A DNA stretch of 50,353 nucleotides, from IMG/VR virus record IMGVR_UViG_3300009124_000028, positions 1 to 50,353 of that record. One strand, written 5' to 3'. The stretch comes from a virus. The translations under genes were made by a program, and so were the position numbers. The notes beneath the pieces were generated by a model. That model was not told where the DNA came from and did not search any database. It was given only the letters and a program-made list of their open reading frames with translations. This document shows, piece by piece, positions 17,450 through 34,512 of the stretch (the first letter of the stretch is position 1; each line of letters opens with the position of its first letter).

Positions 17450-20400
17450 ATGGCTAGTAATGCTTATTCAAGTGCAAATATAACCCCATCGTCAGATACG
17501 TTTAGAGAATGGGTAGACCTAACAAACAGAATTACATACGATATGGAAAAGTATGTAGTTACGACTGCTCCGTTTGGAAATACACAAGGTGCAGAGACAA
17601 TAGGCAATGGTTATGTAAATGGTTTCTTTGGCGCTAATACATTAAAAGTTTTCGATGAGCTCCAAGGTGCCACAGGTAACACGACAGACTATGGTACTGG
17701 TTCGCCTACTGCCAACTTAATAATTTCTACCAACACAGTTTTCTTTGCAAACAGTACATATGGTTCAGAAGTATATGCACAGGCTAATGTTTACTTTACA
17801 AACACTGGCGTCCAGATCTTAGCTAACACAACTAATACAGTATTCATTGCAAACGGCAATGTCTCTGATTTTATATCTGACGCAACAAGAAACAGATTTA
17901 ACACACAAGTCGATATCAATGCTAACGTAGATATTGATAATGGACTGACAACAATAGATTCAACAAACACTTACATTGCAAGTGGCGAACTTAATATAGA
18001 TTCAAATACAGTATTCAATGCTAATGTTCATGCACACGCTAACAGATTTGAAATAAGTTCAAACAATGTAATCGTTACTGCAAATGCTGACGTATTAAGA
18101 TCAAACGCTACATTAAACGACTTTAACAGTAACGTAGATATTGACAATGCTCTAACAACAATAGATTCAACAAACACATATATTGCTAGTGGTGAGTTGA
18201 ATGTAGATTCAAATACTGTATTTAATGCTAATGTCTATGCTCATGCAGACACTGTAGAGTTTAGTTCTAATAACGTCACACTAACAGCTAATGTAGATAC
18301 TTTCCAGTCAAATGCTACGTTAAATGACTTTAACAGTGAAGTAGACATCGACAATGCTTTAACAACAATTGATTCTACTAATACCTCTATAGGTTCTGGA
18401 GAGCTAAACATTAGCTCGAACTTAGTAGTTAACAGTACAGCTACAAATGCAAATATTGCCGCTAACGTTGCGCTATCAGGCGCTAATGTATACGTAACTT
18501 CTACTAACGTAAATATTACAAGTACTGGCGTTACAATTGGTGATGCTAACTCAGATTTATTAACAGTCAACTCTAATACGGTATTGACTGACAAACTTAA
18601 CGTACAAGAGAACGCAGACTTTGATTCTGATGTAAACGTAGATGGTAATGTTCAAGTTGATCAAACTGTTACGGTTGGTAACTCTACTGCAAATGCGCAC
18701 ATCTCTACAGAAGGTAATATTGATACTGATGGTACATTAACAGTTGCAGGAGCATCAGACCTTAACAACACGTTAAATGTATCTGGAATTACTACATTAG
18801 AAAACACGCAAAACTCTACATCAAATACTACTGGCGGTACTAGAATATCAGGTGGTGTTGGTGTTGTAAAATCTGCAACTATTGGAGAGAAGTTAACTGT
18901 CCATGGAGCCATAGATGGTAAATCAACATTAACTGTTGCTAATAATACTGATCTTAATGGCGAGCTGGATGTATTACGTGCAGCATCATTCTCTAACACT
19001 TTAACAGTAACAGGATTTGCAAATCTTGAAAGCACATTAGAAGTAAATTCAACATCTCAATTTGATGATACTATTACAGTCGGTAACTCAACAGCAAATC
19101 TTGTAGTATCGGCTAACGGTAATATGGATACTGATGGACAGCTGTTTGTTAAAGGAACAACACACCTTCAAGACCAAGCAAACGTTGATGGACTACTAAG
19201 AGCAAAAGGTGGCGCAAACGTAACAGGAACAGCTAACGTAAGTAGCACGATCCATGTTTCTACTGGCGATAACAGAGTAAAAATTGCTGATGACGATGTT
19301 ACAGTTGGTAACAGCACTGCTAATACATCTTTATCAGTATCAGGAATTCATACAGACGGAACACTAGATGTAGACAGCACAAGTAATTTGTTAGGTGCTG
19401 TCGTAATGGCTAATACATTAAACACACAAGGCAATGCTGACTTTGATAAAGATGTACAAATAGATCAAACTCTAACAATTGGTAATTCAACAGCCAACGT
19501 AGTAATAGCAAACACAGGTAATATTGATACAGACGGTACATTAACGGTAGCCGGTGCAACATTACTAAACGGAACAGTAGGATTGGGGGATGCAGTTGGA
19601 GATGACATATCAATTAATGGTAGAGTCGCTACTAACATTGTTCCTAATTCTAATGCAGATCAATCAATAGGTACGACAGCTTTAAGATGGGATGTATATG
19701 GAAACCATGTTAGAACTGTAAATTTAACAGCTACAGGTAATGCTCAAATCGATGGGTTTGTAAACGCTGTAGGAAGTGCTAATGTTGGATACCCTTTTGA
19801 AGTATCTAATTCTTCAACAGTAGCATTCAAAGTACAGACAAGAAATTCAGGCGACGATAGAGAAATTATTGTTGGAAATACAGTACCAAATGCAACTCAT
19901 GCAGAAGACAGATTAGTAATAAGATCAGCAATTGGTAACAGTTCAATAGGCGTTCTACCACTACATGGTAATAATGTGGTACTTGGTGATGCTACTCACA
20001 GATGGGTATTCAGTGCTAACACTGGTGACTTCAGTGGCGCTGTAAATATTTCTGATACAACAGAATCTTCAAGCGACACAACTGGAGCATTGAAAGTTGC
20101 AGGTGGACTTGGCGTAGATAAAAAAGCATTCTTAGGTAGCGATGTTGTTATTACTGGATCCGCAAACGTAGGCACTAATTTAGACGTTACAGGCACATCA
20201 CAGTTTGACGGCAAAATTACAATTGGTAATTCTAGCGCTAATGCTGTTGTTACCTCTGCAGGTAATATTGATACTGATGGAACATTAACAGTTGCTGGAA
20301 AAACAACATTAAACGGTGGTGCAGATATTGGTGATGCTTCTTCCGATATAATTAAACTATTAGGATCCATTGGTGGTAACAGCACAGTAGGTATTATTCC

Positions 20401-21550
20401 AAGTGCTAACGGTAGAATTCTTGGTACAAGCGAAAAGAGATTTGCTGGCCAGCTAACAACATTAAACGCATCAGGCGACATTACAGCTGGGTCAGACGTA
20501 GACATTAGCGGAGAAGTAAATGCAGCTTCAGCAGCAATAGTTGGCAGCGCTTCTATTGGTAGCAACCTAGATGTCACTGGTACATCACAATTCGACGGTG
20601 CAATTACAGTTGGTAACTCTACTGCAAATGCAGTTATTGCTTCGTCAGGTAATATTGATACTGATGGATCATTGACAGTTGCAGGAGCATCAGACCTTAA
20701 CAGTACATTAAATGTTGAGGACGATGCTACGTTCCAAGCTAACGTAAGTGTTGATGGAACATTACAAGTAGATACACAGCTTGACTTTGGTAACAGTTCT
20801 GTAAATGCTAACTTAACTGCCAATACCAGTAAAACTGCATTTGCTGTAGACGCAATCAATGCTACTAATTTAATAATAACAGGCTCTGCAGTGTTACCAG
20901 ATGACACTACATTGACAGCTACAGAATTAGGAACAGCTAATTTAAATGTCACCGATACTACTCAGTTCTTAGCTGCAACAAGTAACTCTACATACAGTGC
21001 ATCAGTACAATTTGGTAACGGCAACGATCGACTAGTAGTTAATTTTGCAAATGCTGTTGTCAATACGCATTTTATATCAGATACTTCTACTAGAGATTTA
21101 GGTACTTCATCTAACAAGTGGGGCGAAGTATATCTTGCTGATAAAGTTAATGTTGGTAACTCATCGATATATGCTAACGTATTTGTTAACTCAACTGCGT
21201 CATATGTCATAGCTGACAACATTATTGCAAGAGATGATTTAGTCGCTGCTTCTAGTTCAGACCAAAGACTTAAGTCTAATGTATTAACAATAGACACAGC
21301 AATAGATAAAGTTGAGTCAATTGGTGGTTATGAGTTTGAGTGGAATTCTGCTATTGGAGACTTTAGAGAGGGAACTAAGGATTATGGTGTGCTAGCACAA
21401 GAGGTAGAACAAATCTTACCTCATGCTGTAACCATAAATAGCCGAGGATACAAAACCGTTAACTACAATAGTTTGATACCGCTCCTCATTGAAGCAGTTA
21501 AAGAGTTATCTGGTAGAGTAAGAGAATTGGAAAGAGTAGAGGAAGAATAA
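17450..21550 (+). CDS. Long tail fibre with C-terminal S74 self-cleaving chaperone
   Basis: 1366 residues. The N-terminus (SDTFREWVDLTNRITYDMEK) is a probable baseplate-attachment domain. Residues ~160-320 contain a 69-residue repeat. The rest is built from repeats around the core TVGNSTAN...GNIDTDGTLTVAG, six recognisable copies, predicting a trimeric beta-helical shaft. The end is an intramolecular chaperone autoprocessing (peptidase S74) domain: SDQRLK with putative catalytic Ser1270 and Lys1275, then YGVLAQEVEQILPHAV, VNYNSLIPLLIEAVKEL and a terminal coiled coil. In this family the chaperone trimerises the fibre and cleaves itself off before the Ser. About 97 residues would be released here. 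It is a strong candidate host-recognition fibre. The next gene starts directly after the stop. Confidence 0.92.
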   Translation: MASNAYSSANITPSSDTFREWVDLTNRITYDMEKYVVTTAPFGNTQGAETIGNGYVNGFFGANTLKVFDELQGATGNTTDYGTGSPTANLIISTNTVFFANSTYGSEVYAQANVYFTNTGVQILANTTNTVFIANGNVSDFISDATRNRFNTQVDINANVDIDNGLTTIDSTNTYIASGELNIDSNTVFNANVHAHANRFEISSNNVIVTANADVLRSNATLNDFNSNVDIDNALTTIDSTNTYIASGELNVDSNTVFNANVYAHADTVEFSSNNVTLTANVDTFQSNATLNDFNSEVDIDNALTTIDSTNTSIGSGELNISSNLVVNSTATNANIAANVALSGANVYVTSTNVNITSTGVTIGDANSDLLTVNSNTVLTDKLNVQENADFDSDVNVDGNVQVDQTVTVGNSTANAHISTEGNIDTDGTLTVAGASDLNNTLNVSGITTLENTQNSTSNTTGGTRISGGVGVVKSATIGEKLTVHGAIDGKSTLTVANNTDLNGELDVLRAASFSNTLTVTGFANLESTLEVNSTSQFDDTITVGNSTANLVVSANGNMDTDGQLFVKGTTHLQDQANVDGLLRAKGGANVTGTANVSSTIHVSTGDNRVKIADDDVTVGNSTANTSLSVSGIHTDGTLDVDSTSNLLGAVVMANTLNTQGNADFDKDVQIDQTLTIGNSTANVVIANTGNIDTDGTLTVAGATLLNGTVGLGDAVGDDISINGRVATNIVPNSNADQSIGTTALRWDVYGNHVRTVNLTATGNAQIDGFVNAVGSANVGYPFEVSNSSTVAFKVQTRNSGDDREIIVGNTVPNATHAEDRLVIRSAIGNSSIGVLPLHGNNVVLGDATHRWVFSANTGDFSGAVNISDTTESSSDTTGALKVAGGLGVDKKAFLGSDVVITGSANVGTNLDVTGTSQFDGKITIGNSSANAVVTSAGNIDTDGTLTVAGKTTLNGGADIGDASSDIIKLLGSIGGNSTVGIIPSANGRILGTSEKRFAGQLTTLNASGDITAGSDVDISGEVNAASAAIVGSASIGSNLDVTGTSQFDGAITVGNSTANAVIASSGNIDTDGSLTVAGASDLNSTLNVEDDATFQANVSVDGTLQVDTQLDFGNSSVNANLTANTSKTAFAVDAINATNLIITGSAVLPDDTTLTATELGTANLNVTDTTQFLAATSNSTYSASVQFGNGNDRLVVNFANAVVNTHFISDTSTRDLGTSSNKWGEVYLADKVNVGNSSIYANVFVNSTASYVIADNIIARDDLVAASSSDQRLKSNVLTIDTAIDKVESIGGYEFEWNSAIGDFREGTKDYGVLAQEVEQILPHAVTINSRGYKTVNYNSLIPLLIEAVKELSGRVRELERVEEE
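17927..18415 (+). repeat. 207-bp (69-residue) tandem coding repeat in the S74 fibre
   Basis: Copies begin at 17927, 18134 and 18341 with exact 207-nt spacing. The third is partial. Each starts VDIDN(G/A)LTTIDSTNT and continues SGELN(I/V)DSNTVFNANV. Copies differ at the DNA level, so they are not very recent, but the register is perfect. They look like fibre-shaft units. Confidence 0.85.
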
Positions 21551-21880: not shown

Positions 21881-24800
21881 GTGGCAAACATAAATTATTC
21901 AAAATCTTATTTAAGTGGTTCTAGAGATTATGATGCGTCTTTTATTGGCGTAGATAACCTAGCCCCTAAGATTCTTTACGTTGGTGCTTACATTAAAGCA
22001 TATACAGGACAATATACAAAAACGTATGTTGGTCTGTTTACAAAAGTTTACGGCAAACAATACACAAAAACTTATCTAGGACAGTACACAGGAACGTTTG
22101 TAGGGCAGTATAGTAGACAGTTTGAAGGCGCATTTAATAAACAATATTCTGGCGTTTTTAATAAAACTTATGTCGGTGCCTATGTAAAATCATATAACAA
22201 AACGTATACCAAAACATACATTGGCCAATATTCTCACCAGTGGTCCCATCAATGGGAAGGTTCTTATACAGGAAACTTTTCTGGCGGTCCTTATGCAAGA
22301 CAATATACAGGAGCATTTACAGGGCTTTTTGCAAGAGACGGGGTAGGCGTATATACAAAAATCTACAATAAACAATATACTGCAGTATATACACATCTTT
22401 TTTCAAAAGCGTATACCAAGACTTACGTTGGCCAATACGAGAAAGCCTATACAGGCATTTATACCCAACTGTTCACTAAAACATACAATAAAGCATACGA
22501 TGCTGCGTATACAGGAGTGTTCCAAAGCTATAGAACAGCTACTGAATATTTTGAAACAAACTATGCTCGTCAATATACTAAAACCTGGCAGAGACAATAT
22601 GGCGATAACTATGAGGGACAGTATACAGGATACTACGGAGCAAATTACTCTAGGGATTATACTAAACACTATGTAGGAGTGTATGAAGGCGTTTATACTG
22701 AAAACTACGACAGACAGTACACAGGTAATTATGTTAAACTATATCAGGGCCAATACCAGAATGAGTATGATACAAATTGGGTAGGACAATGGTCTAGAGA
22801 TTGGGCTGGATCCTATCAAAGACAATGGATCAAGTTATATGGCGGCCAATGGTCTAGGCAGTATACTACTGCTGATTTTACTGCAACATACTCTACTCAA
22901 TGGCTAGGTACGTATTCAAGAGCTTGGGCTGGTCCAGGTCCATCTTATATTCGTGGATGGGCAAGATTCTATACAGGCCTGTATCAAGGATGGGCATGGT
23001 TCCAACAAACCTTTGATGGGATACAATTACCAGCTAATGGAGAGAATTATTATCGAGGCCTACGCAACTATGCTGGTGGTGAGAACGTTTTTTTTGGAGG
23101 ATTGGCTTATCATAGAGCATTTATAGGCACTTATTTAAAACAATTTGAAGGTGGGGCATCGTATGTAAAGACGTATTCAAGAACCGAAGTCGAGCCCGAG
23201 TTTAATCCACCAATTGTTTTCTATGAGAGTTTCAACGCCTCCTATCAAGGGACTGGAACTCAAAACTACGGTAGAAATTATGTTGGTTCGTTTGAGCCGC
23301 AATATGTTGGATCGGTTGATGAAGTGTTTACTGGGAGTTATCAAAGAGTTTGGACTAAGCAGTGGACAAAGCAATATTCAGCAAACTATCAAAACGAGTA
23401 TGCAAATTCATATGCTGGCGATTACACTGGAACATACCAAAACTCTTGGACAAAAAGATATATAAAACTGTACACAGGAAACTACGAAAGACAGTATGAT
23501 AGACAGTGGACAAAACTTTATCAAAAAGCATATACTGGCCAATGGCAAAGAAACTGGACAAAAAATTATATTAAGCAGTATGCAAAAATTTGGGATCAGA
23601 TATGGGTTGGCATTTATTCTAAAACGTGGACAAAAAATTACAACAGACAATTTACGGAACAGTATACAAAAGCGTACGAAGGTACTAGAGACTACATTGG
23701 ATATTGGACAGGCGTATATAACAAACAATGGATAAAGTCATATCATAAACAATATGAAGGTGCCTTTGAGGGTGTGTTTACTAAACAGTATGAAGGATCT
23801 TTTGATAAGAATTATATTAAGCAATATGAAGGTGCGTTTACTAAACAATGGACAAAAGCATATAGTAAAAATTGGAATTCACAGTGGTCAGGGACCTACT
23901 CTAGACAATTTACTGGCGTACAGTACTATGGCGGAAATGACATAGGAACGTTCTCAAGAGTGTTTGTTGGTCTGTATACTAAGCAGTATACAAAACTATA
24001 CGAAGGCGCATTTAATAAAAATTATATAAAAACATATAATAAGACTTACTTAGGCGATTACGTCAAAACATATTCTGGCGTTTACAATAAAACATATCTT
24101 GGCCAATATACAGGAACTTTTGAAGGCGCATTCAATAAACAATTTGAAGGTGCATTCACTAAGCAGTATGGTAAAACGTATACAAAGGTATACGAAGGTG
24201 CATTCAACAAGCAATACGAAGGAACCTTTGTTAAGTCATATGGTGGCGTATTCGTAGGAAACTATGCTAGCGTATCTAAAGCACTTCATTATACAAACAA
24301 TTATACAGGACCTATTTCGTATGTTACTAGTTATGCTAGCACAACGGCCGTTGCAAATACCAAGACAGGAGAATTAACTACTACTGGCGGTGGTGTCAGC
24401 AATATCAATGAAAGCGGCACAATGAAGCAAGTCGAAGAGCTTAATGTTAAAGTAGCTGATGAATGGAAAAATGTAATTGTTGGTAGGATTAAAGAAGGGG
24501 ATGAGTGGAAAGTTTCTCATGTTAAGTATCAAAGGCATGATATAACAATCTCTTCTAATACAACCAATTATGTTTTGAGAACCGAATTAAGCAATCTTGG
24601 GGCAAGTCCTGGAACGCTTCCTCAGCATGTAAACATTACTATTGAACCTGGGGTATTTTTATTTGGAACATCCACAACTTCGCCAGCATTGGATTTGAGT
24701 ACTTTGAATGTGCTTAGGTCAATATTCAGACATAAAGTTAGAATACTAATTAAAGATGGTGGTGGTATAATCGGATCTTCTGGTGCTAGAGGAACAGCAA

Positions 24801-25312
24801 CACCGGCCACAAGAACAGGATCGAGCGGTGGTAATGGCGGTAATGCTGTTAAGACCGAAAATGGCGTAGATTTGTTTATAGAAAACTACGGTACAATATC
24901 TGGAGGCGGTGGCGGTGGTGGTGCCGGTGGCTTCCCAGTCAATGGTTCTACAGAATCATTAGCAGGTGGTAATGGTGGTCATGGTGCTGGTTACAATACT
25001 ACATTAGGCTATATTACAGAAAACAATTCAAACAGAAATGGCACAGATAGTGCTGTCAATTATGGAATACATGGAGGAGACGGAGGATTACTAGGCCAAT
25101 TAGGTATAGGAGCTGGCGGATTTAATGATTCACCAGCAGCTGGTACAAATGATATTAGTGAGCCTAATCCAGGTACAAACTATACTCAGTATGGTCAATC
25201 TGGTGACGGAGGAATTCCTGGATCTGCTATCATTGGTTACGATGCAGCTAGGATTACATTTATAAATACCGGTAGCGTCTATGGTGACAGCGCTTACAAA
25301 TTTAAGGCATAG
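21881..25312 (+). CDS. Tyrosine tetrapeptide-repeat adhesin with glycine-rich C-terminal domain
   Basis: 1143 residues with a GTG start, supported by AGGGAGAG (21867-21874). No better in-frame start keeps the conserved-looking MANINYSKSYLSG. From about residue 30 an aromatic residue (Y, sometimes F or W) recurs every fourth position, e.g. YTGQYTKTYVGLFTKVYGKQ. The tract is interrupted around 22,930-23,290 by a non-repetitive segment rich in W/G/P and resumes to ~24,290. Then follow a segment with DEWKNVIVGRIKEGDEWKVS and a glycine-rich end (GTISGGGGGGGAGGF near residue 1010). The latter resembles polyglycine sandwich tips of phage receptor-binding adhesins. I infer a virion adhesin with repeat stalk and Gly-rich tip. 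The repeat family is not one I recognise. Confidence 0.85.
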   Translation: MANINYSKSYLSGSRDYDASFIGVDNLAPKILYVGAYIKAYTGQYTKTYVGLFTKVYGKQYTKTYLGQYTGTFVGQYSRQFEGAFNKQYSGVFNKTYVGAYVKSYNKTYTKTYIGQYSHQWSHQWEGSYTGNFSGGPYARQYTGAFTGLFARDGVGVYTKIYNKQYTAVYTHLFSKAYTKTYVGQYEKAYTGIYTQLFTKTYNKAYDAAYTGVFQSYRTATEYFETNYARQYTKTWQRQYGDNYEGQYTGYYGANYSRDYTKHYVGVYEGVYTENYDRQYTGNYVKLYQGQYQNEYDTNWVGQWSRDWAGSYQRQWIKLYGGQWSRQYTTADFTATYSTQWLGTYSRAWAGPGPSYIRGWARFYTGLYQGWAWFQQTFDGIQLPANGENYYRGLRNYAGGENVFFGGLAYHRAFIGTYLKQFEGGASYVKTYSRTEVEPEFNPPIVFYESFNASYQGTGTQNYGRNYVGSFEPQYVGSVDEVFTGSYQRVWTKQWTKQYSANYQNEYANSYAGDYTGTYQNSWTKRYIKLYTGNYERQYDRQWTKLYQKAYTGQWQRNWTKNYIKQYAKIWDQIWVGIYSKTWTKNYNRQFTEQYTKAYEGTRDYIGYWTGVYNKQWIKSYHKQYEGAFEGVFTKQYEGSFDKNYIKQYEGAFTKQWTKAYSKNWNSQWSGTYSRQFTGVQYYGGNDIGTFSRVFVGLYTKQYTKLYEGAFNKNYIKTYNKTYLGDYVKTYSGVYNKTYLGQYTGTFEGAFNKQFEGAFTKQYGKTYTKVYEGAFNKQYEGTFVKSYGGVFVGNYASVSKALHYTNNYTGPISYVTSYASTTAVANTKTGELTTTGGGVSNINESGTMKQVEELNVKVADEWKNVIVGRIKEGDEWKVSHVKYQRHDITISSNTTNYVLRTELSNLGASPGTLPQHVNITIEPGVFLFGTSTTSPALDLSTLNVLRSIFRHKVRILIKDGGGIIGSSGARGTATPATRTGSSGGNGGNAVKTENGVDLFIENYGTISGGGGGGGAGGFPVNGSTESLAGGNGGHGAGYNTTLGYITENNSNRNGTDSAVNYGIHGGDGGLLGQLGIGAGGFNDSPAAGTNDISEPNPGTNYTQYGQSGDGGIPGSAIIGYDAARITFINTGSVYGDSAYKFKA
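21970..24290 (+). repeat. 12-bp periodic coding repeat (aromatic tetrapeptides), first tract
   Basis: Coding repeat of four residues, consensus aromatic-[T/V/E/N]-[G/K/R]-x. Typical units are YTGQ, YTKT, YVGQ, FEGA, FNKQ and WTKQ. The register is broken once by the unique segment ~22,930-23,290. Units are degenerate at the DNA level, so the 12-bp period is seen best as evenly spaced TAT/TAC codons. Confidence 0.9.
25261..25268 (+). promoter_or_regulatory. Candidate late promoter before the 2121-residue gene
   Basis: Exact TATAAATA within the last codons of the preceding gene, 49 nt before the ATG at 25318. The position suits a T4-type late transcript for the giant repeat gene. Because it lies in coding sequence, chance occurrence is possible. 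Confidence 0.4.
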
Positions 25313-25317
25313 TATTA

Positions 25318-28300
25318 ATGGGTAATCCTCTAAGATTAAAAGAAACTGTTGGCAGTACATTTCTTGGTTTACAAGAGATGCAAGATGCCGAGATGGACTA
25401 TGCTGTTCATCAGGTTCTTACAGAATTTTCAGTCTCATTAACTGCATCAGGAACCATTAATATAAATGGTGACGGAACGGATGCGGGATCATTTTCTGAT
25501 ACTACCAGAACAGAGGTGGTAGGATTTCACCCTTCGCAAAATGCAATATCAACCAGTACGTATACGTTAAAACAAAACTTAACATCTACGTCGGAGTCGT
25601 CTATTGTGTATCCTTTATTTGTCGACGATAATGGATATGCAGCAGAGCATAGCAACAACCTATCTTCTACCATTATTTCAAGAGCTCTTTCTAACCTAGT
25701 TTCTAATGGTTTGGGATCATATTGGTTATCTGAAGTAAATCCAAATGCAAGTCTTTATAGTGATTCAGGATACAGCGTAACAGATACAAACAAACAAGGT
25801 ACCACAGTATACAAGCTATGGAGAAAAGACCAAGGCGTTTCTAGTCCTTCTGTAACTAGACCTGTAAGACTAAACAGCAGCTCAATTCAAGAAATGTCAG
25901 ATGCAGAGATTAAAACTCTTGCAGCTCGATTAAGAAATCAAATAGTAGATACGGGAATTGGAACATATAGATTAGCTTCTACTAATCCAGCTGCACCGGG
26001 TGAGACTTGGGTGTTAGTTAGTGATGATGTTACAGATACAAGAAACACTATTTCAAGTCAGCAGTATGCTGCTACGTATGTAGGTGCATTTGACAAAACA
26101 TATTCTGGCGCTTACATTGGTATTTACGAAAAAGCATATAATAAGCAGTATGAAGGTGCATTTACAAAACAATACGAAAAAACTTATGTAGGTGCTTACA
26201 CTGGCCAATATACAAAAACATATGTAGGCCAATACGAAGGAACGTTTACAGGAAACTATACCAAGCAATATGAGGGATCCTTCGTTGCACAATACACAGG
26301 AGCATTTGAAGGCGTCTATGTTGGCGTTTATACAAAACAATATCAAGGCCAGTATGTAGGAACATATTTAAAATCCTATGTTGGTCAATATAGTAGACAA
26401 TTTGAAGGAGCGTTCAACAAACAATACGAAGGAACGTTTACTGGATATTTTTCTGATACTTACTCTAGAATTTTCTTAGGACTGTATACCAAAACTTTCT
26501 TGGGCCAATACACTGGAACTTTTATAGGCCAATATGTAAAACAATATACTGGAACATTCGAAGGCGCATTTAACAAAACATACACAGGCGTATACGTCGG
26601 CCAGTATGAAAAACTTTATATTGGAAACTACACTAAGACATATGTTGGCCAATATGAGAAAGCATACACCGGACAGTATGAGGGTACGTTCACAGGATAC
26701 TATACAGGCGTAAGACAGTTTGAAGGCGTGTATGCTGGCAACTATGAAGGAACGTTTACTAAGCAATATGTAAAAACATACGAAGGCGCTTATGAAGGAG
26801 TATATGCAGGATCCAGAACATATGCTGGCCAGTATGCAGATCAATATCAAAAAGCATATGTCGGTAATTGGACCAAAACTTACATTGGCATATTTTCAAG
26901 ACAGTTCTCAGGTACCAGAACCTATGAAGGACAATACACAGGATACTTTAATAAAACTTATCTAGGTGTAAACTATGTCAACCAATATGCAAAGCTGTAT
27001 GCAGGATCTAGAACTTACAATGGACAATATAGCACAAACTATTTAAAATCATATACTGGCCAGTATACAGCTCAATATGAAGGCACTCGTACGTTCGAGG
27101 GCACATATGCTAGTACAACGGAATTCTACACGGGATTCTTCCTTGCTGGGTCTTTTGAGGGCGCATACACAAGTGCTTACGTAAAAACGTATACAACCGA
27201 TTACAATAGGTTATACACCGGGAATTACACCAAGACATACGTAGGCGCGTATGTCAAGACTTATGCTAAAGATTACATAAAAAACTACGAAACTAATTAC
27301 ACCAAACAATACCAAAAGGCTTATACTGGTGCTTATGTAAAAGCATATACAAAAACGTATGTTGGCCAATTTGATAGATTGTGGACCAAAACATATGAGG
27401 GAGCATACACTGCTAACTATATTAGCAGCTGGAATAAGAACTATACAAAAGAATATGCAGGCATCTACACAAAACTGTATCAAAAGGCTTATGCGGGCAT
27501 CTACAGTAGAAACTGGTTAAAGCAGTATACTGGCTTATATGCAAAAATTTGGATCAATCAATATACTGGTCTGTACACAAGTCTGTGGACTAAAGCGTAT
27601 ACTGGTAACTGGGTAAAATCATACACTGGCCAATGGAACAGACAATATCTTAAACAGTACACTGGATCCTATCAAAGATTATACACAAAAGCATACACAG
27701 GCAACTATGCCAAAATTTGGCAAAAAGCATATGTGGGACAATACGTAAGCCAGTGGACAAAAACATACGGCGGTAATTACGAAAGATTATACACTGCTAA
27801 TTATAACAAAGATTATACAGCATCTTTCCAAAAAGCATATGCTGGTTTATACGAGAGAGCATTTACAGGCCAATATGCTACAAATTATCTACAGCAATAT
27901 TCCAGACTATATGGCGGTGTTTATCAAACTACTTTCTCTGGACAGTATGCTACAAATTATCTACAGCAATATTCCAGACTATATGGCGGTGTTTATCAAA
28001 CTACTTTCTCTGGACAGTATACAACTAACTATCAAGTAGCTTGGCAAAAACAATATTTAAAAAGTTATACAGGCGCTTACGATAGAACGTTTACTGGCCA
28101 ATATACGACTAACTGGCAAGTAGCTTGGACAAGACAATATCTTAAACAATACACTGGTGCTTATAATACATTGTTTGCTGGAACGTATGGAACCAACTAT
28201 CTTGTTCAATGGACAAAACAATATCTTAAACAATACACTGGAAATTATGATAGGTTATTTGCTGGAACGTATGGAACCAACTATCTCGTTCAATGGACTA

Positions 28301-31300
28301 GAAGATATACTAGACAATATACAGGAAACTATGATAGAGCATTTAGTGGGCAGTATGGAACTAACTATCTCGTTCAATGGACTAGAAGATATCAAAAAGC
28401 ATATACAGGAAACTATGTAAGAGCATTTGCTGGTAACTATGTAAAACAATGGGCTAAGACTTGGACAAAAGCATGGCAAAAAGCATATACAGGAAACTAT
28501 GCAAGACAGTTTGCTGGAACATATGGAACTAACTATCTAGTTCAATGGACAAAGGCATATGATAGACAGTATGCAGGAACTTATAATACTACCTTCTCCG
28601 GCCAATATGCGACTAACTTCTTAAAGCAATGGACTGCTAGATATGCTAGACAATACTCTGGAACATATAATACAAATTATCAGAGAGAGCAATTCTTCCT
28701 CGGTCCTGGAACAAACTATACGGGTAGCATTAACTATGCTCGTGATGTTGCTTTTGCAGCTGCAAAAGCAGGTCCATTCTATTTAAGCACCCAATACTAT
28801 GCTGGGGGAGCAGTAAACTATAATAACGATATGCTTCCAAAGGGTTGGATTGCCGGTAGTAACATACTAAATGGTGAAATGGAATATAACGGTCCAGGGA
28901 CAGTAAGTTACGCAAGACTTATTAACTATACTAAAGGGTTTACTGGACAGTATACAAGCAACTATGATAGACAATATAGTATAAACTATACTAGACAATA
29001 TACAGGAAACTATACTAGAGCGTATACTGGTAACTATACAAAAAGATATAACAGACAATATGGTACTAACTATTTAAAGCAGTATACAGGAAACTATGAT
29101 AGAGCATTTAGTGGAACATACGTAACAAACTATAATGTTAATTGGAACAGACATTTCTCAGTTACGTCCACTGGGTATTATGATAATACGTTTACTGGAA
29201 CGTACACTAGTAACTATGACAGACAATATGGTACTAACTATTTAAAGCAGTATGCAGGAAGCTACGCAAGACAATTTGCTGGAACTTACGCATCAAATTA
29301 TGACAGGCAATACGGTACCAATTACTTAAAGCAATATACTGGCCAATACACTGGCACGTTTGCTGGAACTTATGGTACAAACTACGGAAGACAATACGGT
29401 ACCAATTACTTAAAGCAATATACTGGCCAATACACTGGCACGTTTGCTGGAACTTATGGTACAAACTACGGAAGACAATACGGTACCAATTACTTAAAGC
29501 AATATACTGGCCAATACACTGGCACGTTTGCTGGAACTTATGGTACAAACTACGCCAAAGCATACACAGCAAACTATGCCCAACAGTATACAGGCAACTA
29601 TGCCAGACAGTTCAGTGGAACATACAACACTAACTACACAAAAGACTATACTGCAAACTATGCTAAACAATACACTGGAAATTATACTCGCGATTATTCT
29701 GGTAACTATACTAAGCAATATAGTACCAATTATACTAAACAATATACAGGTAATTACACTCGCGATTATTCTGGCAACTATACTAAGCAATATGGTACCA
29801 ATTATACTAAACAATATACTGGTAACTATTCAAGACAATTTGGTGGCACTTACACAAGAAACTATGTAAAAAATTGGATCAGAACATATGCTAAGCAATA
29901 TGCAAAATTGTATGCAGGACAATACAATAAACAATATGAAGGCGCGTTTACTGGTACGTATACATCAAACTATGGTGCAGATTATGCAGGTACCTATAAT
30001 AAGAATTATGCAAACGAGTATGCAGGAACGTATGGTACCAATTATACTAAATTATATGAAGGCGTATACAACACTACGTTTGTAGGCATATACAATCAAC
30101 AATATGAAGGCATATTCTCTGGCACTTTCTCAAAATCATATGGTGCTGACTATGCAGGTACATATGGAACAAACTATGCTGGTGAGTATGCTGGAACATA
30201 CAATACTAACTATAACAAAGGATATGAGGGAGTATTTGCAAAGCAATATGTTGCAACTTACACTGGACTGTTCATTAAAACGTATGTTGGACAATACAAC
30301 AAACAATATCTTGCTCTGTATGAAGGATCTTTCAACAAAAATTACTCTGCAACGTACGAGGGCGTGTATACAAAACAATATCTCAAGCAGTACACAGGGT
30401 TATGGTCTAAAAATTATATTAATATCTACAGTGCATTGTATGAAGGCGCATACAACAAAAACTATGTAGGAAATTATACAAGAGATTACATTAAGTCGTA
30501 TAATAAAAATTATGAAAGAGCATACGTAGGAATATTTAACTTATTCTATTCTGGAACATTTGCTGCGCAATATGCTGGATCAAGAACATACACTGGTCAA
30601 TATAATAAACAGTATGAAGGTACATTTAATAAGAATTACACTAAGCAATATGCTGGTACAAGAACGTATGCGGACCAATATGGAACAAATTATGCTAAAA
30701 CATACGCACCTGGATACGTAAAAGCATATGCAGGTCAGTATGCTGGATCCAGAACATATGCTGGTCAATATACAGGCAACTTTGAAGGCGCTTTTAATAA
30801 GACATATGTTTCAGTAGCATATATTAAAGCATATGCTAAACTATGGGCCGGATCAAGAACATATAACGGTGATTACACTGGCTACTATAATGGGTTCTAT
30901 AATAAGTCATATGAAAAAGCATATGCGGGTATCTATACAGGATACTATATAGGAATTTATGAGGGACCTCAAATATACGAAGGCGTGTATACAGGCGTGT
31001 ACGAAGGAACGTATACCAAGCAATACGAAGGCGCATACAACACAACGTATCTTGGAAACTACACAAAACAATACGAAGGTGCATTTACAGGCAACTACAT
31101 AAAAACATATATTGGTCAATACAGTCAACAGTTTAGTAAAACATATGAAGGTGCTTTTAACAAACAATTTGAAGGAGCATTTACAAAACAATATGAAGGA
31201 GCTTACGTTGGCGACTTTGTTAAAGTGTGGGCCGGTGACTATTCTGGTCAATACACTAAAACTTATCTTGGATTGTATGAAGGAACATTTGAAGGAGTGT

Positions 31301-31683
31301 TCCAAAGACAGTATAGCGGTACTTACTTAAAAGTTTATACAAAAGAGTATGAAGGATCGTTTACTGGATACTACAGCAGTCAGTTTGAAAAAGTATGGGT
31401 AGGTCTATACACTAAACTGTATCAAGGTCAGTACTCGCAATTGTTTACTGGGTATTTTGATAAAGTATATGAAGGCGTATTTACTGGTTACTACACAACC
31501 CAATATACAAAAACATATATTGGCCAGTATACTAAGACATATACAAAACAATACGAAGGAACTTTTATTGGAAATTATGTTGCCACGTACCTTGGAAACT
31601 ATGATAATGCCTGGTCAGGATTAACAGTTGACTCTGGAACTGAAACAATTTCTACAGTTAAATTGTGGTTAAGAGTAGCTTAA
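25318..31683 (+). CDS. Giant tyrosine tetrapeptide-repeat fibre protein
   Basis: 2121 residues, ATG 5 nt after the previous stop with a weak AAGG upstream. The N-terminus (MGNPLRLKETVGSTFLGLQE) resembles marine-phage fibre N-termini. Residues ~20-245 hold two copies of a module: EMQDAEMDY..GLGSYWL..NPNA..VTDT..VYKLWRK, then EMSDAEIKT..GIGTYRL..NPAA..VTDTRN. The next ~1850 residues are aromatic tetrads (YTGNYTKQYEGAFNKQ style), interrupted once at ~28,690-28,935 by a unique GPGTNY...GPFYLSTQYYAGG segment. The protein ends SGTETISTVKLWLRVA. Tract composition is zoned: Y/F with EG at both ends, W-rich in the middle, GTNY-rich later. It likely forms a very long virion fibre. Its fold is unknown to me. 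Confidence 0.85.
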   Translation: MGNPLRLKETVGSTFLGLQEMQDAEMDYAVHQVLTEFSVSLTASGTININGDGTDAGSFSDTTRTEVVGFHPSQNAISTSTYTLKQNLTSTSESSIVYPLFVDDNGYAAEHSNNLSSTIISRALSNLVSNGLGSYWLSEVNPNASLYSDSGYSVTDTNKQGTTVYKLWRKDQGVSSPSVTRPVRLNSSSIQEMSDAEIKTLAARLRNQIVDTGIGTYRLASTNPAAPGETWVLVSDDVTDTRNTISSQQYAATYVGAFDKTYSGAYIGIYEKAYNKQYEGAFTKQYEKTYVGAYTGQYTKTYVGQYEGTFTGNYTKQYEGSFVAQYTGAFEGVYVGVYTKQYQGQYVGTYLKSYVGQYSRQFEGAFNKQYEGTFTGYFSDTYSRIFLGLYTKTFLGQYTGTFIGQYVKQYTGTFEGAFNKTYTGVYVGQYEKLYIGNYTKTYVGQYEKAYTGQYEGTFTGYYTGVRQFEGVYAGNYEGTFTKQYVKTYEGAYEGVYAGSRTYAGQYADQYQKAYVGNWTKTYIGIFSRQFSGTRTYEGQYTGYFNKTYLGVNYVNQYAKLYAGSRTYNGQYSTNYLKSYTGQYTAQYEGTRTFEGTYASTTEFYTGFFLAGSFEGAYTSAYVKTYTTDYNRLYTGNYTKTYVGAYVKTYAKDYIKNYETNYTKQYQKAYTGAYVKAYTKTYVGQFDRLWTKTYEGAYTANYISSWNKNYTKEYAGIYTKLYQKAYAGIYSRNWLKQYTGLYAKIWINQYTGLYTSLWTKAYTGNWVKSYTGQWNRQYLKQYTGSYQRLYTKAYTGNYAKIWQKAYVGQYVSQWTKTYGGNYERLYTANYNKDYTASFQKAYAGLYERAFTGQYATNYLQQYSRLYGGVYQTTFSGQYATNYLQQYSRLYGGVYQTTFSGQYTTNYQVAWQKQYLKSYTGAYDRTFTGQYTTNWQVAWTRQYLKQYTGAYNTLFAGTYGTNYLVQWTKQYLKQYTGNYDRLFAGTYGTNYLVQWTRRYTRQYTGNYDRAFSGQYGTNYLVQWTRRYQKAYTGNYVRAFAGNYVKQWAKTWTKAWQKAYTGNYARQFAGTYGTNYLVQWTKAYDRQYAGTYNTTFSGQYATNFLKQWTARYARQYSGTYNTNYQREQFFLGPGTNYTGSINYARDVAFAAAKAGPFYLSTQYYAGGAVNYNNDMLPKGWIAGSNILNGEMEYNGPGTVSYARLINYTKGFTGQYTSNYDRQYSINYTRQYTGNYTRAYTGNYTKRYNRQYGTNYLKQYTGNYDRAFSGTYVTNYNVNWNRHFSVTSTGYYDNTFTGTYTSNYDRQYGTNYLKQYAGSYARQFAGTYASNYDRQYGTNYLKQYTGQYTGTFAGTYGTNYGRQYGTNYLKQYTGQYTGTFAGTYGTNYGRQYGTNYLKQYTGQYTGTFAGTYGTNYAKAYTANYAQQYTGNYARQFSGTYNTNYTKDYTANYAKQYTGNYTRDYSGNYTKQYSTNYTKQYTGNYTRDYSGNYTKQYGTNYTKQYTGNYSRQFGGTYTRNYVKNWIRTYAKQYAKLYAGQYNKQYEGAFTGTYTSNYGADYAGTYNKNYANEYAGTYGTNYTKLYEGVYNTTFVGIYNQQYEGIFSGTFSKSYGADYAGTYGTNYAGEYAGTYNTNYNKGYEGVFAKQYVATYTGLFIKTYVGQYNKQYLALYEGSFNKNYSATYEGVYTKQYLKQYTGLWSKNYINIYSALYEGAYNKNYVGNYTRDYIKSYNKNYERAYVGIFNLFYSGTFAAQYAGSRTYTGQYNKQYEGTFNKNYTKQYAGTRTYADQYGTNYAKTYAPGYVKAYAGQYAGSRTYAGQYTGNFEGAFNKTYVSVAYIKAYAKLWAGSRTYNGDYTGYYNGFYNKSYEKAYAGIYTGYYIGIYEGPQIYEGVYTGVYEGTYTKQYEGAYNTTYLGNYTKQYEGAFTGNYIKTYIGQYSQQFSKTYEGAFNKQFEGAFTKQYEGAYVGDFVKVWAGDYSGQYTKTYLGLYEGTFEGVFQRQYSGTYLKVYTKEYEGSFTGYYSSQFEKVWVGLYTKLYQGQYSQLFTGYFDKVYEGVFTGYYTTQYTKTYIGQYTKTYTKQYEGTFIGNYVATYLGNYDNAWSGLTVDSGTETISTVKLWLRVA
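27874..28017 (+). repeat. Exact 72-bp tandem duplication
   Basis: 27874-27945 and 27946-28017 read identical by eye, encoding YATNYLQQYSRLYGGVYQTT plus FSGQ twice. Exact DNA identity in a region of otherwise diverged units indicates a recent duplication. Confidence 0.9.
29311..29554 (+). repeat. 84-bp tandem repeat, three copies
   Basis: Copies begin at 29311, 29395 and 29479. The first two are complete and the third matches through its first 76 bases. Each encodes YGTNYLKQYTGQYTGTFAGT followed by YGTNYGRQ. Identity at synonymous sites points to very recent expansion. Confidence 0.9.
29671..29814 (+). repeat. Near-identical 72-bp tandem repeat
   Basis: Two copies (29671-29742 and 29743-29814) encode YTGNYTRDYSGNYTKQY(S/G)TN followed by YTKQ, with a handful of mostly synonymous differences. 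This is an older duplication than the exact ones nearby. Confidence 0.85.
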
Positions 31684-31738: not shown

Positions 31739-32278
31739 ATGGCTGAAGAAGCAAAAGAAGCAAAGGTGCCTGAGGGCGCCAATATAAAACAACCTAAACC
31801 AGAGAGACCGCAGAGATCAGGATTAACTATTCCTGAATTTTCTGTCGACGCTAGTTTACCAAATATCTGCTATCCACATTATACTAATAATGCTAGAGAT
31901 CAACTTTCTTGTGTTCTGATTAGACCAGATGGAATGGCAATGATAGAACAAAATATTCCTAGGGATGAAAAACATCCACTTTACAGAGATATTAAAAGAC
32001 AGTTTACAGATCAAGAGATTGATCATAACACGGAGCGTGAGATTGCAATCCAACAAGCAAAAGCTAAGGATGCTGATCTTAAAACAAAGGATGAAAACAG
32101 AGAGAGACGTAGAGCAGAGTTATGGGCACGCAAAAGCACTTTCTTAGATTTAGATGTAGTTAAAAATACTCAGCATAAAAATCTTAAAAGAAAATTACGA
32201 CAAGCTACTAATCCTGAAGAAGCTCTAGCATACGGCGTAGCGATCATCATTAAAGAGTCTGAAAAAGATGGAGAATAA
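31739..32278 (+). CDS. Conserved-looking protein of unknown function
   Basis: 179 residues. The N-terminus is a charged Lys/Glu/Pro-rich, probably disordered segment (MAEEAKEAKVPEGANIKQPK). A compact part follows with SVDASLPNICYPHYTNNARD and VLIRPDGMAMIEQNIPRDE, then a highly charged helix (residues ~100-135, many K/E/D/R) and a C-terminal helix (NPEEALAYGVAIIIKESEKD). No domain is recognised and no membrane segment is clear. It opens the cassette behind its own late promoter, and its end overlaps the glycosyltransferase start by 11 nt, so the two are probably co-translated. An assembly or virion accessory role is possible but unproven. Confidence 0.75.
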   Translation: MAEEAKEAKVPEGANIKQPKPERPQRSGLTIPEFSVDASLPNICYPHYTNNARDQLSCVLIRPDGMAMIEQNIPRDEKHPLYRDIKRQFTDQEIDHNTEREIAIQQAKAKDADLKTKDENRERRRAELWARKSTFLDLDVVKNTQHKNLKRKLRQATNPEEALAYGVAIIIKESEKDGE

Positions 32279-33101
32279 AGGATACTTATTAGTGTCCACT
32301 ATGTCAAAAGCATTTTACGAAGCCATGGTGATGGCAGTTGAATCCTTGAAAGATGAAGTTCCGGATGCTAAAGTTGCTGTGTACACTCATGAGGAATGGA
32401 TACGAGATCAAGATAGACCCTTGTTTGATCATATCGTGACCCCTGTTCCTGTTCACGTAAGAACTAAACTATGGGCATTAGATCAATCGCCGTTTGATAA
32501 AACAATCTACCTAGATTGTGACGTATTTGTCTTAAACAATGAGATAGAAGAAGTTTGGGATCATTTAGGCGACCATGATGTTGTAATGTCAGAGAATAGG
32601 CCTTATAATGCTAAGGTAGTTTATTTTACTCACGACGACCAAGTTGGCCCAGGAATTAAAGGTGCCGAACTAGAACACTACAGATCAGAGCACATGGATC
32701 TTTATAGACAAGGTAAAGCTCATAAGTTTCAATGGCACTGTGGTATGTTTGCTTGGAATAAAAATGAACGTACTCAAAAGTTATGGCAAGAATGGCTGAA
32801 GTGGTATAGAAGGCATACGGAGCAAACTACATCACCTTTTCCAAGTGGGCTAGCTTATTGGGACACATTTGCTTTTTGGAGGGCTCTATATGAGAATCCA
32901 GAATTGAATGTAGACATTAAAAGAATGCCAAACGATGCTAAGTATAACTTTGTTACTGGTTATAAAGAAACTGAATTGAGACCTGGATCCGAAAAATCAG
33001 TTTTACATTACACAATTGATCCAGAATATACTAAGGAGGGATTTATTATCCATGAGACAAGTTTTGACACTAACTACGGATCTTTTGAAACTTTTAGATG
33101 A
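32268..33101 (+). CDS. GT8-like glycosyltransferase (GT-A fold, DxD)
   Basis: 277 residues. The visible pattern fits family GT8-type GT-A enzymes: an N-terminal nucleotide-sugar region, RTKLWALDQSPFDKTIYLDC with the metal-binding D-x-D at residues 83-85 (DCD), a HCGMFAWNKN loop in the acceptor region, WDTFAFWRAL in the place of the DQ-type helix, and a late LHYTIDP histidine element. It would transfer a sugar from a nucleotide-sugar donor using a divalent metal, in the cytoplasm. Substrate is not readable. Placement between two fibre clusters suggests glycosylation of a virion protein, or alternatively of host surface material or phage DNA. Start chosen at ATG 32268, overlapping the upstream gene. 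The 3' end contains the next gene's ribosome site. Confidence 0.8.
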   Translation: MENKGYLLVSTMSKAFYEAMVMAVESLKDEVPDAKVAVYTHEEWIRDQDRPLFDHIVTPVPVHVRTKLWALDQSPFDKTIYLDCDVFVLNNEIEEVWDHLGDHDVVMSENRPYNAKVVYFTHDDQVGPGIKGAELEHYRSEHMDLYRQGKAHKFQWHCGMFAWNKNERTQKLWQEWLKWYRRHTEQTTSPFPSGLAYWDTFAFWRALYENPELNVDIKRMPNDAKYNFVTGYKETELRPGSEKSVLHYTIDPEYTKEGFIIHETSFDTNYGSFETFR

Positions 33102-33768
33102 GTATCAACAATTCATAATTAATAACAGGCCCGATAAACTTTTACCTAATTGGAAAACAAAAGGTAAGTTTATGAAAGAAGGTCGTCCAGAATACTCTAC
33201 ATCTATAGAATGTTTGAAAAGTATGCCTGCTGACACTCATGACGGATATCCTCCTGACAGCTATGGCTATGATATGAATGCTCCTACTTTGCAAAGAGTG
33301 TTGGCTGAAGACGGTGATAGATTCACACAAGCAGAAAAAGACGCCATCCGAATGTACATAGAAAAATCTGAAGAACTTGATGACACATTGGGTGCTTACA
33401 TTGGATATAAGTTCTGTGCGTTAAAGATGTTCTATCCTGAAGATGGTTATATTGCATGGCATACTAATTGGAATGTCCCTGGATATAATTGTCTATTCAC
33501 TTGGAGCGATGGTAAAGGATATTGGAGACATTTAGATTCTACTGATGAGAAGCCAGGATCCATAATGCCAGATCCAGACACTAAATTAGTTCATCTACAA
33601 GACAAAGATGGATGGCATTGCAAATTAGGTTACTATGGTGAGAAGCAAGAACACAATAGAATTATGTGGCACTCTGCTTATGGAGGACCTAGAATTACAT
33701 TAGGATTTGTTGTATACGACGTAAATATTTGGGACGATATTGTTGAAGAGATTACATCTGCAGAATGA
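33052..33768 (+). CDS. Hypothetical protein, possible double-stranded beta-helix / Fe(II) oxygenase-like
   Basis: 238 residues from ATG 33052. An upstream in-frame ATG at 33016 is rejected because AAGGAGG at 33033-33039 is well placed for 33052. The C-terminal half carries GYIAWHTNWNVPGYNCLFTW and later IMWHSAYGGPRITLGF. His137-x-Asn139, His207 and Arg214 sit roughly where 2-oxoglutarate/Fe(II) oxygenases have HxD...H...R, but Asn replaces the usual Asp. The fold and activity are therefore tentative, and a non-catalytic cupin is equally possible. It overlaps the glycosyltransferase by 50 nt and overlaps the following gene at ATGA, so the three genes are tightly coupled. Co-occurrence with the glycosyltransferase suggests a joint modification role. 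Confidence 0.7.
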   Translation: MRQVLTLTTDLLKLLDEYQQFIINNRPDKLLPNWKTKGKFMKEGRPEYSTSIECLKSMPADTHDGYPPDSYGYDMNAPTLQRVLAEDGDRFTQAEKDAIRMYIEKSEELDDTLGAYIGYKFCALKMFYPEDGYIAWHTNWNVPGYNCLFTWSDGKGYWRHLDSTDEKPGSIMPDPDTKLVHLQDKDGWHCKLGYYGEKQEHNRIMWHSAYGGPRITLGFVVYDVNIWDDIVEEITSAE

Positions 33769-34182: not shown

Positions 34183-34512
34183 ATGGCAACTAAGGTCAAT
34201 ATAGTCCTAGATCAGGGCACTGATTTTGAAACAACAGTTAACTTAACAAACGACGAGGGAGCACAGCTTGACCTTACAGGCATGGCTGCCGCCTCGCAAA
34301 TCAGAAAAACTTACTCATCCTCTAACTCCGTAGCATTTACAACTGCATTAGCAAATAATAATGGAACACTAACTCTTTCATTAAATAACGCTACAACTGC
34401 TAGTATGTCTCCAGGCAGATATAAATATGACGTGGAGATAACATCCTCTAGTGGAGTGATAACACGAATACTAGAAGGAACTGTTACCGTAACACCGGAG
34501 GTAACAAGATAA
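34183..34512 (+). CDS. Ig-like BppU-N-type virion protein
   Basis: 109 residues, ribosome site TAGGAG 7 nt upstream. The pattern DFETTVNLTNDEGAQLDLTG, then SQIRKTYSS, GTLTLSLNNATTASMSPGRY and YDVEITSSSG...ILEGTVTVTPEVT is that of the small all-beta domain (BppU N-terminal type) found in phage baseplate and fibre proteins. In larger phage proteins this domain attaches to the baseplate. Here it stands alone as the first gene of the second fibre operon and may be an adaptor for the fibres encoded downstream. Its stop overlaps the next start, with GGAGGT 9 nt before. Confidence 0.75.
   Translation: MATKVNIVLDQGTDFETTVNLTNDEGAQLDLTGMAAASQIRKTYSSSNSVAFTTALANNNGTLTLSLNNATTASMSPGRYKYDVEITSSSGVITRILEGTVTVTPEVTR

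Follow-up and report, generated by a model that had tools for sequence, protein, structure and literature searches.

Giant aromatic tetrapeptide-repeat proteins of environmental T4-like viruses: candidate host-contact fibres with a linked, putatively modifying gene cassette

We analysed the 50,353-base virus record IMGVR_UViG_3300009124_000028, called the window here in its whole length, and describe in it two adjacent giant proteins, P0001 and P0002, that are built from a repeat of four residues (a tetrad) opening on an aromatic side chain, and that are followed by three genes, c2, c3 and c4, found behind such repeat genes in nearly every relative with enough flanking DNA. With a probability of roughly 0.5, we read the two proteins together as a host-contact fibre of a T4-like myovirus that is modified by the products of its own c2-c3-c4 cassette. 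Relatives form a family that is large, almost uncultured, and outside Pfam and the functionally annotated PHROGs, with a common architecture of an N-terminal domain (N-domain), a variable repeat, and a conserved C-terminal end. The two repeat genes and their parts are as follows.

21881 to 25312, plus strand: P0001, a 1143-residue aromatic-tetrad protein with a C-terminal Gp38-like adhesin domain (GTG start)
21977 to 24274, plus strand: tetrad-repeat region of P0001, residues 33-798, with breaks (from aromatic spacing)
24449 to 25288, plus strand: Gp38-like glycine-rich adhesin domain of P0001, residues 857-1136 (Pfam PF05268, phrog_2056, phrog_10745)
25318 to 31683, plus strand: P0002, a 2121-residue aromatic-tetrad protein (ATG start)
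25318 to 26043, plus strand: conserved N-domain of P0002, residues 1-242 (20-sequence alignment; AlphaFold2 confidence)
26065 to 31623, plus strand: tetrad-repeat region of P0002, residues 250-2102, with short breaks (from aromatic spacing)
31624 to 31680, plus strand: C-terminal end of P0002 (..TVKLWLRVA), corresponding to the YTLY-x-[RK] or LW-x-[RK] ends of relatives

P0002 holds 480 aromatic residues, and 408 of the 479 gaps between neighbouring aromatics equal 4, with 13 in-phase runs of at least four units (the longest 54, 128, 117, and 54 units, all within residues 250-2102), while 200 composition shuffles gave no run above 9. P0001 shows a spacing of 4 in 159 of 216 gaps, and its longest run, of 30 units, compares with a shuffle maximum of 7. 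At the DNA level, a degenerate pattern of 14 in-phase Tyr/Phe codons yielded 177 overlapping matches in the window and none in 100 dinucleotide shuffles. The unit consensus of both proteins is aromatic, then T/S/A/E/V/N, G/K/R, and Q/N/T/A, with Y at 66-77%, F at 16-18%, and W at 6-16% of first positions. An initial annotation, made from the letters of the DNA, had claimed an aromatic at every fourth position and a consensus aromatic-[T/V/E/N]-[G/K/R]-x, both of which are recovered here; the two adjacent repeat genes that it placed at 21970-31610 are indeed present, with earlier starts and later ends (21881-31683). That it recognised no known fibre repeat is also in line with our searches: the repeat regions of P0001 and P0002 matched no Pfam repeat model (pentapeptide, hexapeptide, collagen-like, or other) at E ≤ 1, phmmer found nothing for either protein among Protein Data Bank (PDB) sequences at E ≤ 1, and the period of 4 differs from the 3, 5, or 6 of the known Pfam repeats tested. 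Across its whole length, P0002 gave no Pfam family at E ≤ 1, and it weakly matches phrog_15773 (1.9e-4), a PHROG of unknown function.

Local DNA duplications are present at 24-, 84-, and 168-nt spacings, and many matches of the codon pattern elsewhere are low-complexity repeats, as might be expected if the open frames were artefacts of a 12-bp DNA tandem repeat with no selected protein repeat behind them. We hold such an origin to be extremely improbable, given 83 distinct tetrads within the 128-unit run of P0002, an N-domain and a C-terminal end kept over diverged contigs, and a comparison of P0002 with its relative in locus L008 in which, under an aligner that rewards aromatic matches, none of the 339 aligned first positions loses its aromatic residue and identity at positions 2 and 4 is 37-39%. 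The 84-nt duplications (28 residues, seven tetrads) lie inside P0002 at window positions 28936-29691, and the open reading frame (ORF) of the near-identical contig L007 aligns to P0002 with one 28-residue gap. The sequences thus compared suggest that tetrad proteins may grow and shrink by whole tetrads.

The family was collected in two ways. A first scan with the 14-codon pattern gave at least 120 stretches, of which 31 loci were kept by eye as tetrad proteins and the remainder set aside as low-complexity or other repeats (FPP, FGQG, YRIP, and similar); one of the 31, L067, was dropped from the counts of unit composition and phase shifts and kept among the 115 loci used for linkage. A profile scan of IMG/VR, based on N-domain alignments of 20 and then 8 sequences, matched 236 viral stretches, and the best 80, retained as 79 loci, included 75 loci with tetrad ORFs (119 in total). 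All family counts are lower bounds, taken from the best 80 of the 236 N-domain stretches and the best 80 of at least 575 c4 relatives, and some contigs are present under two locus identifiers, for which collapsing similar c4 sequences corrects. Two repeat genes occur in 55 of 111 repeat-bearing loci, and family ORFs range from 224 to 3347 residues, fragments included. Of the 119 ORFs, 103 (82 distinct) have a complete 3' end, and by a pattern written after inspection of the ends, all of them close on a motif of the YTLY-x-[RK] or LW-x-[RK] type; P0001 and the members in L025/L030 end differently, and the start of P0001 is short and different, with no match there to the N-domain profile. The N-domain of P0002, the C-terminal end motif, and the linked cassette all go beyond what had been noticed in this DNA.

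Some variants and look-alikes were seen along the way. A 1488-residue family member (L217:3-4466) consists mostly of [YW]-x-K-x units, against the Gly/Arg majority, and members in L280 and L272 mix tetrads with an NFLGVTPANYxGVR-like repeat. Many viral contigs carry ORFs of a different aromatic four-residue repeat, FPP[FYH] (L014, L019, L021, L026, L039, L054, L057, L060, and others).

Among 50,697 phage records searched by tblastn at 1e-5, P0002 matched one, C48C1 (OQ984149.1, Kyanoviridae, 156 kb), whose CDS0201 (WJE88074.1) is a "hypothetical protein" of 3347 residues. It shares with the P0002 family the N-domain, the tetrads, a YVRVA end, and downstream homologues of c2, c3, c4, and c5, and differs in its 27% identity to P0002, a repeat richer in Arg and R-x-S-type units, and insert domains. 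The window's c3 and c4 and the proteins of other members likewise match only C48C1 in these records, with the exception of the repeat protein of L237. The latter also weakly matches an S-RIM2 "structural protein" in eight records (KX349226.1, 94638-94961, and seven others), with 29.6% identity across 15% of the query and E about 1e-3. Against the genomes of 84,980 species, the 8-sequence N-domain profile matched 10 stretches, none a relative, and c4 searched against prokaryote genomes matched 85 stretches that included four relatives, all on contigs of metagenome-assembled genomes (MAGs). Three of these four carry tetrad ORFs and c2/c3, and are probably viral contigs in bins; the fourth, L290, has no repeat gene. 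In the available portions of the literature outside subscription journals and preprints, we found no description of an aromatic tetrad repeat or of a c2-c3-c4 operon.

Gene order behind the repeat genes is constant, with c2 (about 150 residues), c3 (about 245), and c4 (about 225), and with c5 often close behind. In the window these genes are as follows.

31739 to 32278, plus strand: c2, a 179-residue charged protein and the first cassette gene (neighbour clustering, profiles)
32268 to 33101, plus strand: c3, a GT-A/GT8-like putative glycosyltransferase with an invariant D-x-D (Pfam GT8 below cutoff; alignment)
33052 to 33768, plus strand: c4, predicted Fe(II)/2-oxoglutarate oxygenase fold with H-x-N...H...R (AlphaFold2 model, Foldseek, VIA-align, motif)
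34183 to 34512, plus strand: c5, an LtfC-like small protein near the cassette (Pfam LtfC below cutoff; phrog_3304)

Linkage was counted from both sides, using profiles built from first-set loci, so that the repeat-anchored and c4-anchored sets are not wholly independent. From the 115 repeat-anchored loci, four with no qualifying repeat ORF and 39 with less than 2.2 kb downstream were excluded; by profile counts, 71 of the remaining 72 have c2-c3-c4, and the last (L204) has c3-c4. The c4-anchored scan gave at least 599 stretches with at least 575 relatives, of which the best 80 were kept and 19 with less than 2.5 kb upstream set aside; 59 of the other 61 carry a tetrad ORF plus c2 or c3, the exceptions being L280, with an N-domain gene of variant repeat plus c2 and c3, and L278, with none of these. 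After similar c4 sequences were collapsed, the link held in 46 of 47 repeat-anchored and 40 of 42 c4-anchored groups, and in 37 of 39 groups dissimilar to the first set. The c4-like gene of L278 lies at 6001-6627, and its neighbours resemble capsid genes by eye. The c5 cluster occurs in 69 of the 115 loci and matches Pfam LtfC at 4.5e-5, below cutoff, and phrog_3304 (L-shaped tail fibre assembly) at 3.7e-20. Past c4, some loci (L117, L020, L244, L291, and similar) have extra genes, many on the opposite strand, and several of these (cluster c10 and others) resemble further glycosyltransferases by eye.

The c3 product matches Pfam GT8 (PF01501) at E 7e-5, with 23.0 bits against a curated cutoff of 24.3, and the D-x-D motif characteristic of GT8 (D83-x-D85) is invariant in 22 of 22 aligned sequences, a combination that weakly suggests a GT-A-type (GT8-like) glycosyltransferase. 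Against PDB sequences, c3 and c2 gave chance-like matches only (ribosomal eS25 at 0.054, RNase III at 0.14), and no convincing family was found for c2. For c4, an AlphaFold2 model from 48 sequences has a mean predicted local distance difference test (pLDDT) score of 91.3. Its best Foldseek match, and the only one under 0.001, is the prolyl-4-hydroxylase (P4H) of Pseudomonas putida (E 7.9e-4), with ABH3 also among the top matches, and VIA-align gives Z scores of 10.1 for PHD2 (root-mean-square deviation 3.5 over 143 residues), 9.7 for the P. putida enzyme (4j25), and 9.1 for the Chlorella virus enzyme vCPH (5c5t). The model has the double-stranded beta-helix of Fe(II)/2-oxoglutarate (2OG) oxygenases, and the second His (H207) and an Arg seven residues on (R214), which in sequence order would match the Arg/Lys that binds 2OG, are invariant in the 48 aligned sequences, in the same H...H...R order as in the P4H-like enzymes. 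By this confident model c4 has an Fe(II)/2OG oxygenase fold near the prolyl hydroxylases, and we do not claim active membership of that family.

Which residues such enzymes might modify was considered through the composition of the units. Pooled over 134 non-redundant proteins with enough units, the family unit is [YF]-[TSAV]-[GR]-[NDT]; in each of 132 non-redundant proteins, no fewer than 10% of the units have Thr/Ser at position 2 and no fewer than 8.9% have Gly at position 3. The units contain no Lys in 112 of the 132 proteins and no Pro in 80, which disfavours a collagen-type Pro or Lys target, and c4 would be no plain prolyl hydroxylase acting on the tetrad repeat because the tetrads of those 80 proteins are proline-free. 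An N-glycosylation sequon as a general target is likewise disfavoured, as N-aromatic-[ST] triplets fall below expectation (1040 observed versus 1156.5 expected, ratio 0.9). The candidate residues that remain, judged from composition, are the aromatic at position 1 and the Thr/Ser at position 2.

Behaviour between runs speaks to the structure of the repeat. Spacings between runs are even in 475 of 605 cases, and 177 of 307 true phase shifts are by two residues, against the one third that equal likelihood of all shifts would give (p 4e-18). Gaps inside repeats, over 58 pairs of relatives, are multiples of 4 in 140 of 212 cases and even in 195, and identity between P0002 and L008 is 80, 37, 64, and 39% at positions 1 to 4, counts that are partly forced by an aligner rewarding aromatic matches. 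Where an in-phase aromatic is skipped and the pattern then resumes, 207 of the 338 sites hold Arg and 46 hold Ser. Arg has a planar side chain, as the aromatics do, and these replacements would fit a stacked ladder, and the continuous ladder of aromatics that the initial annotation had envisaged is compatible with Arg as the commonest residue at skipped sites. We infer extended beta structure because shifts by two keep both faces of a beta strand, and the shifts, together with the use of Arg in place of aromatics, speak for stacked beta structure rather than disorder, so far as sequence can tell.

The same annotation had also raised a new beta-solenoid, spiral, or stacked fibre fold, and our models did not reveal a solenoid or any fixed fold. 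AlphaFold2 run on residues 1-530 of P0002 with 23 sequences gave five models with mean pLDDT of 48-53, in which the N-domain reached mostly 72-95 in blocks to residue 240, with a dip to 58 around residues 61-80, and the repeat stayed at about 24-41. A super-period acting as a solenoid turn was looked for and rejected: lags are 7 tetrads in P0002, 3 in C48C1, L018, L055, L111, L161, and L176, 5 in L049, and 2 in L025 and L118. The family has no longer period in common, which argues against a solenoid of one fixed turn. Foldseek found no match for the N-domain in that model at E ≤ 0.001 in the PDB or BFVD, a VIA search of 340 chains gave Z ≥ 2 for 14 and Z 5 for none, and the N-domain profile had no convincing match among PDB sequences. 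These fold-search blanks do not establish a new N-domain fold because more than half of the 530-residue model is of low confidence, and they say nothing about the repeat given its pLDDT of about 24-41.

A monomer model of this kind cannot separate disorder from an obligate oligomer, and so it neither confirms nor dismisses the uniform disorder that the initial annotation would have taken as refuting its fold. The low scores would also suit a flexible sticker-and-spacer chain, with Tyr/Phe and Arg as stickers and Gly and polar residues as spacers, forming a sticky, hydrogel-like brush in place of a folded shaft. A composition rich in Tyr, Gly, Asn, Gln, and Thr, the very variable length, and the tolerance of the repeat for insertions and breaks would agree with such a chain. 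A disordered chain would not obviously need, however, an exact four-residue spacing kept for as many as 128 units, a prevalence of indels in multiples of 4 or 2 with shifts by two, or the positional constraint seen between P0002 and L008. Disordered chains also commonly contain Pro, of which the units have almost none; we therefore judge a brush of this kind unlikely.

Host contact, which had been proposed from the sequence at the outset, is supported by the adhesin domain of P0001 and by the position of the genes among tail genes. Residues 911-1136 of P0001 match Pfam PF05268 (Gp38) at E 1.8e-10, with 41.4 bits against a cutoff of 25; phrog_2056 (E 1.1e-10, residues 857-1136) and phrog_10745 (E 2.5e-18, residues 842-1022) also match, and GG-rich repeated motifs are visible in the domain. 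The profile match and the glycine richness are shared with the T-even Gp38 adhesins. In T-even phages Gp38 is a separate tip protein, whereas in P0001 the domain is fused to the tetrad repeat, and P0002 has none. A tblastn search with the P0001 domain found nothing in the 50,697 phage records at 1e-5.

The window has T4-like gene content by PHROG matches of its ORFs, with neighbouring baseplate wedge, tail sheath, tube, portal, terminase, and head-tail adaptor genes, as in the tail module of a T4-like myovirus. The cassette is flanked by a 2243-residue ORF (phrog_358) and a gene matching the head-tail adaptor profile phrog_211. In pelagimyophages, a host recognition cluster is located between VrlC and the neck gene gp14, and GT8 genes are reported in this cluster in pelagimyophages and cyanomyophages, according to the passages on it in PMC7029224; those passages mention neither aromatic tetrad repeats nor a c2-c3-c4 operon. 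The position of the window cassette would correspond to this cluster, with tail-fibre genes ahead of the neck gene, and C48C1 was the only phage record to match P0002 at 1e-5. Further upstream, a tail fibre of 1366 residues (window 17450-21550) has long Asn/Ser/Thr/Val-rich repeats and a C-terminal S74 endosialidase chaperone (Pfam 1.4e-13), and a 105-residue ORF and then P0001 lie directly downstream of it.

The cluster also bears on a different account, in which c3 alters the host surface (superinfection exclusion), c4 is a non-catalytic binder or acts elsewhere, and the link to the fibre is that of a co-inherited host-range module. The same passages of PMC7029224 read the GT8 enzymes of the pelagimyophage cluster as modifiers of the host O-chain, c4 has H-x-N as its first motif, and the module is placed among tail and baseplate genes. 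Linkage is nevertheless near-absolute and of fixed order (71 of 72; 59 of 61) even among diverged members, which would be tighter than expected of independent cargo, and c4 with no repeat gene is rare (L278 and L290), so that we consider this account rather doubtful.

Under the reading that we prefer, a fibre modified by its own cassette, the folded N-domain of P0002 would anchor the protein to the virion, and its repeat would form a long shaft of [YFW]-x-[GRK]-x units that closes on the short conserved C-terminal end; P0001 would bring the same kind of repeat, ending in a Gp38-type glycine-rich receptor-binding domain. In extended beta strands, side chains of positions 1 and 3 (aromatic/Arg; Gly or Arg/Lys) would point to one side and those of positions 2 and 4 (Thr/Ser/Val; Asn/Asp/Gln/Thr) to the opposite side, so that planar side chains would stack in a shaft that is probably oligomeric. 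The cassette would modify the fibre by hydroxylation and/or glycosylation at residues found in every member, namely the aromatic of position 1 and the Thr/Ser of position 2, with c2 possibly serving as an adaptor or chaperone.

Several observations weigh against this interpretation, in addition to the aligner's part in the gap and identity counts. The presence of tetrad proteins in virions is something we infer, and C48C1, the sole phage record matched at 1e-5, names no host. AlphaFold2 gave no confident monomer fold for repeat residues 241-530, and 130 of 307 phase shifts are odd (by one or three). 2OG oxygenases normally have H-x-D/E, and the first motif of c4 is H-x-N in 76 of 76 sequences, lacking the H-x-D/E...H iron triad; we know of no characterised oxygenase with an H-x-N motif, and the iron site may be altered or inactive because H-x-N replaces H-x-D/E. 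In addition, none of 21 c4 members matched Pfam, c4 matched nothing among PDB sequences, and c3 members split between GT8 (2 of 22, E ≤ 0.05) and GT2 (5 of 22), below Pfam cutoff. With Pro and Lys absent from the units of many proteins and the sequon not enriched, we cannot name a classical target of hydroxylation or N-glycosylation, and c4 occurs with no repeat gene in the available DNA of L278 and L290.

Among known systems, the P4H-like oxygenases share a fold with the c4 model and differ from it by the H-x-N motif and the missing sequence matches. Mimivirus collagen is a Gly-X-Y triple helix with Lys/Pro targets, and differs from the aromatic tetrad, whose units lack Lys in most proteins and Pro in many. 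The hydroxylation and glycosylation of mimivirus collagen, the subject of PMC9546862, offer an analogy in which a repetitive viral fibre has its own modifying enzymes. By that analogy, the tetrad protein may work as a repetitive viral fibre and its cassette as the enzymes dedicated to modifying it; the repeat matches no family tested. There is a real chance of something categorically new. Tentatively, and with less confidence than in the reading above, one could go further to a new class of viral fibre, an aromatic/arginine-ladder tetrapeptide protein whose assembly or stickiness would depend on its own hydroxylase-glycosyltransferase pair. On that view the repeat would be a new fold, c4 would act as an iron oxygenase with H-x-N on a new target (Tyr, Thr, or another unit residue), and such fibres would be spread among environmental T4-like viruses while hardly ever met in culture.

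A strict four-residue aromatic repeat in proteins of up to 3347 residues is thus found in hundreds of environmental viral contigs, compared with one of 50,697 phage records at 1e-5. The tetrad fibre would provide a natural test of aromatic/arginine stacking, and c4 an H-x-N variant of a major enzyme superfamily. Finally, the near-obligate link between repeat and cassette leads to a testable claim, that phages may post-translationally hydroxylate and glycosylate the fibres with which they contact the host, much as happens to collagen.

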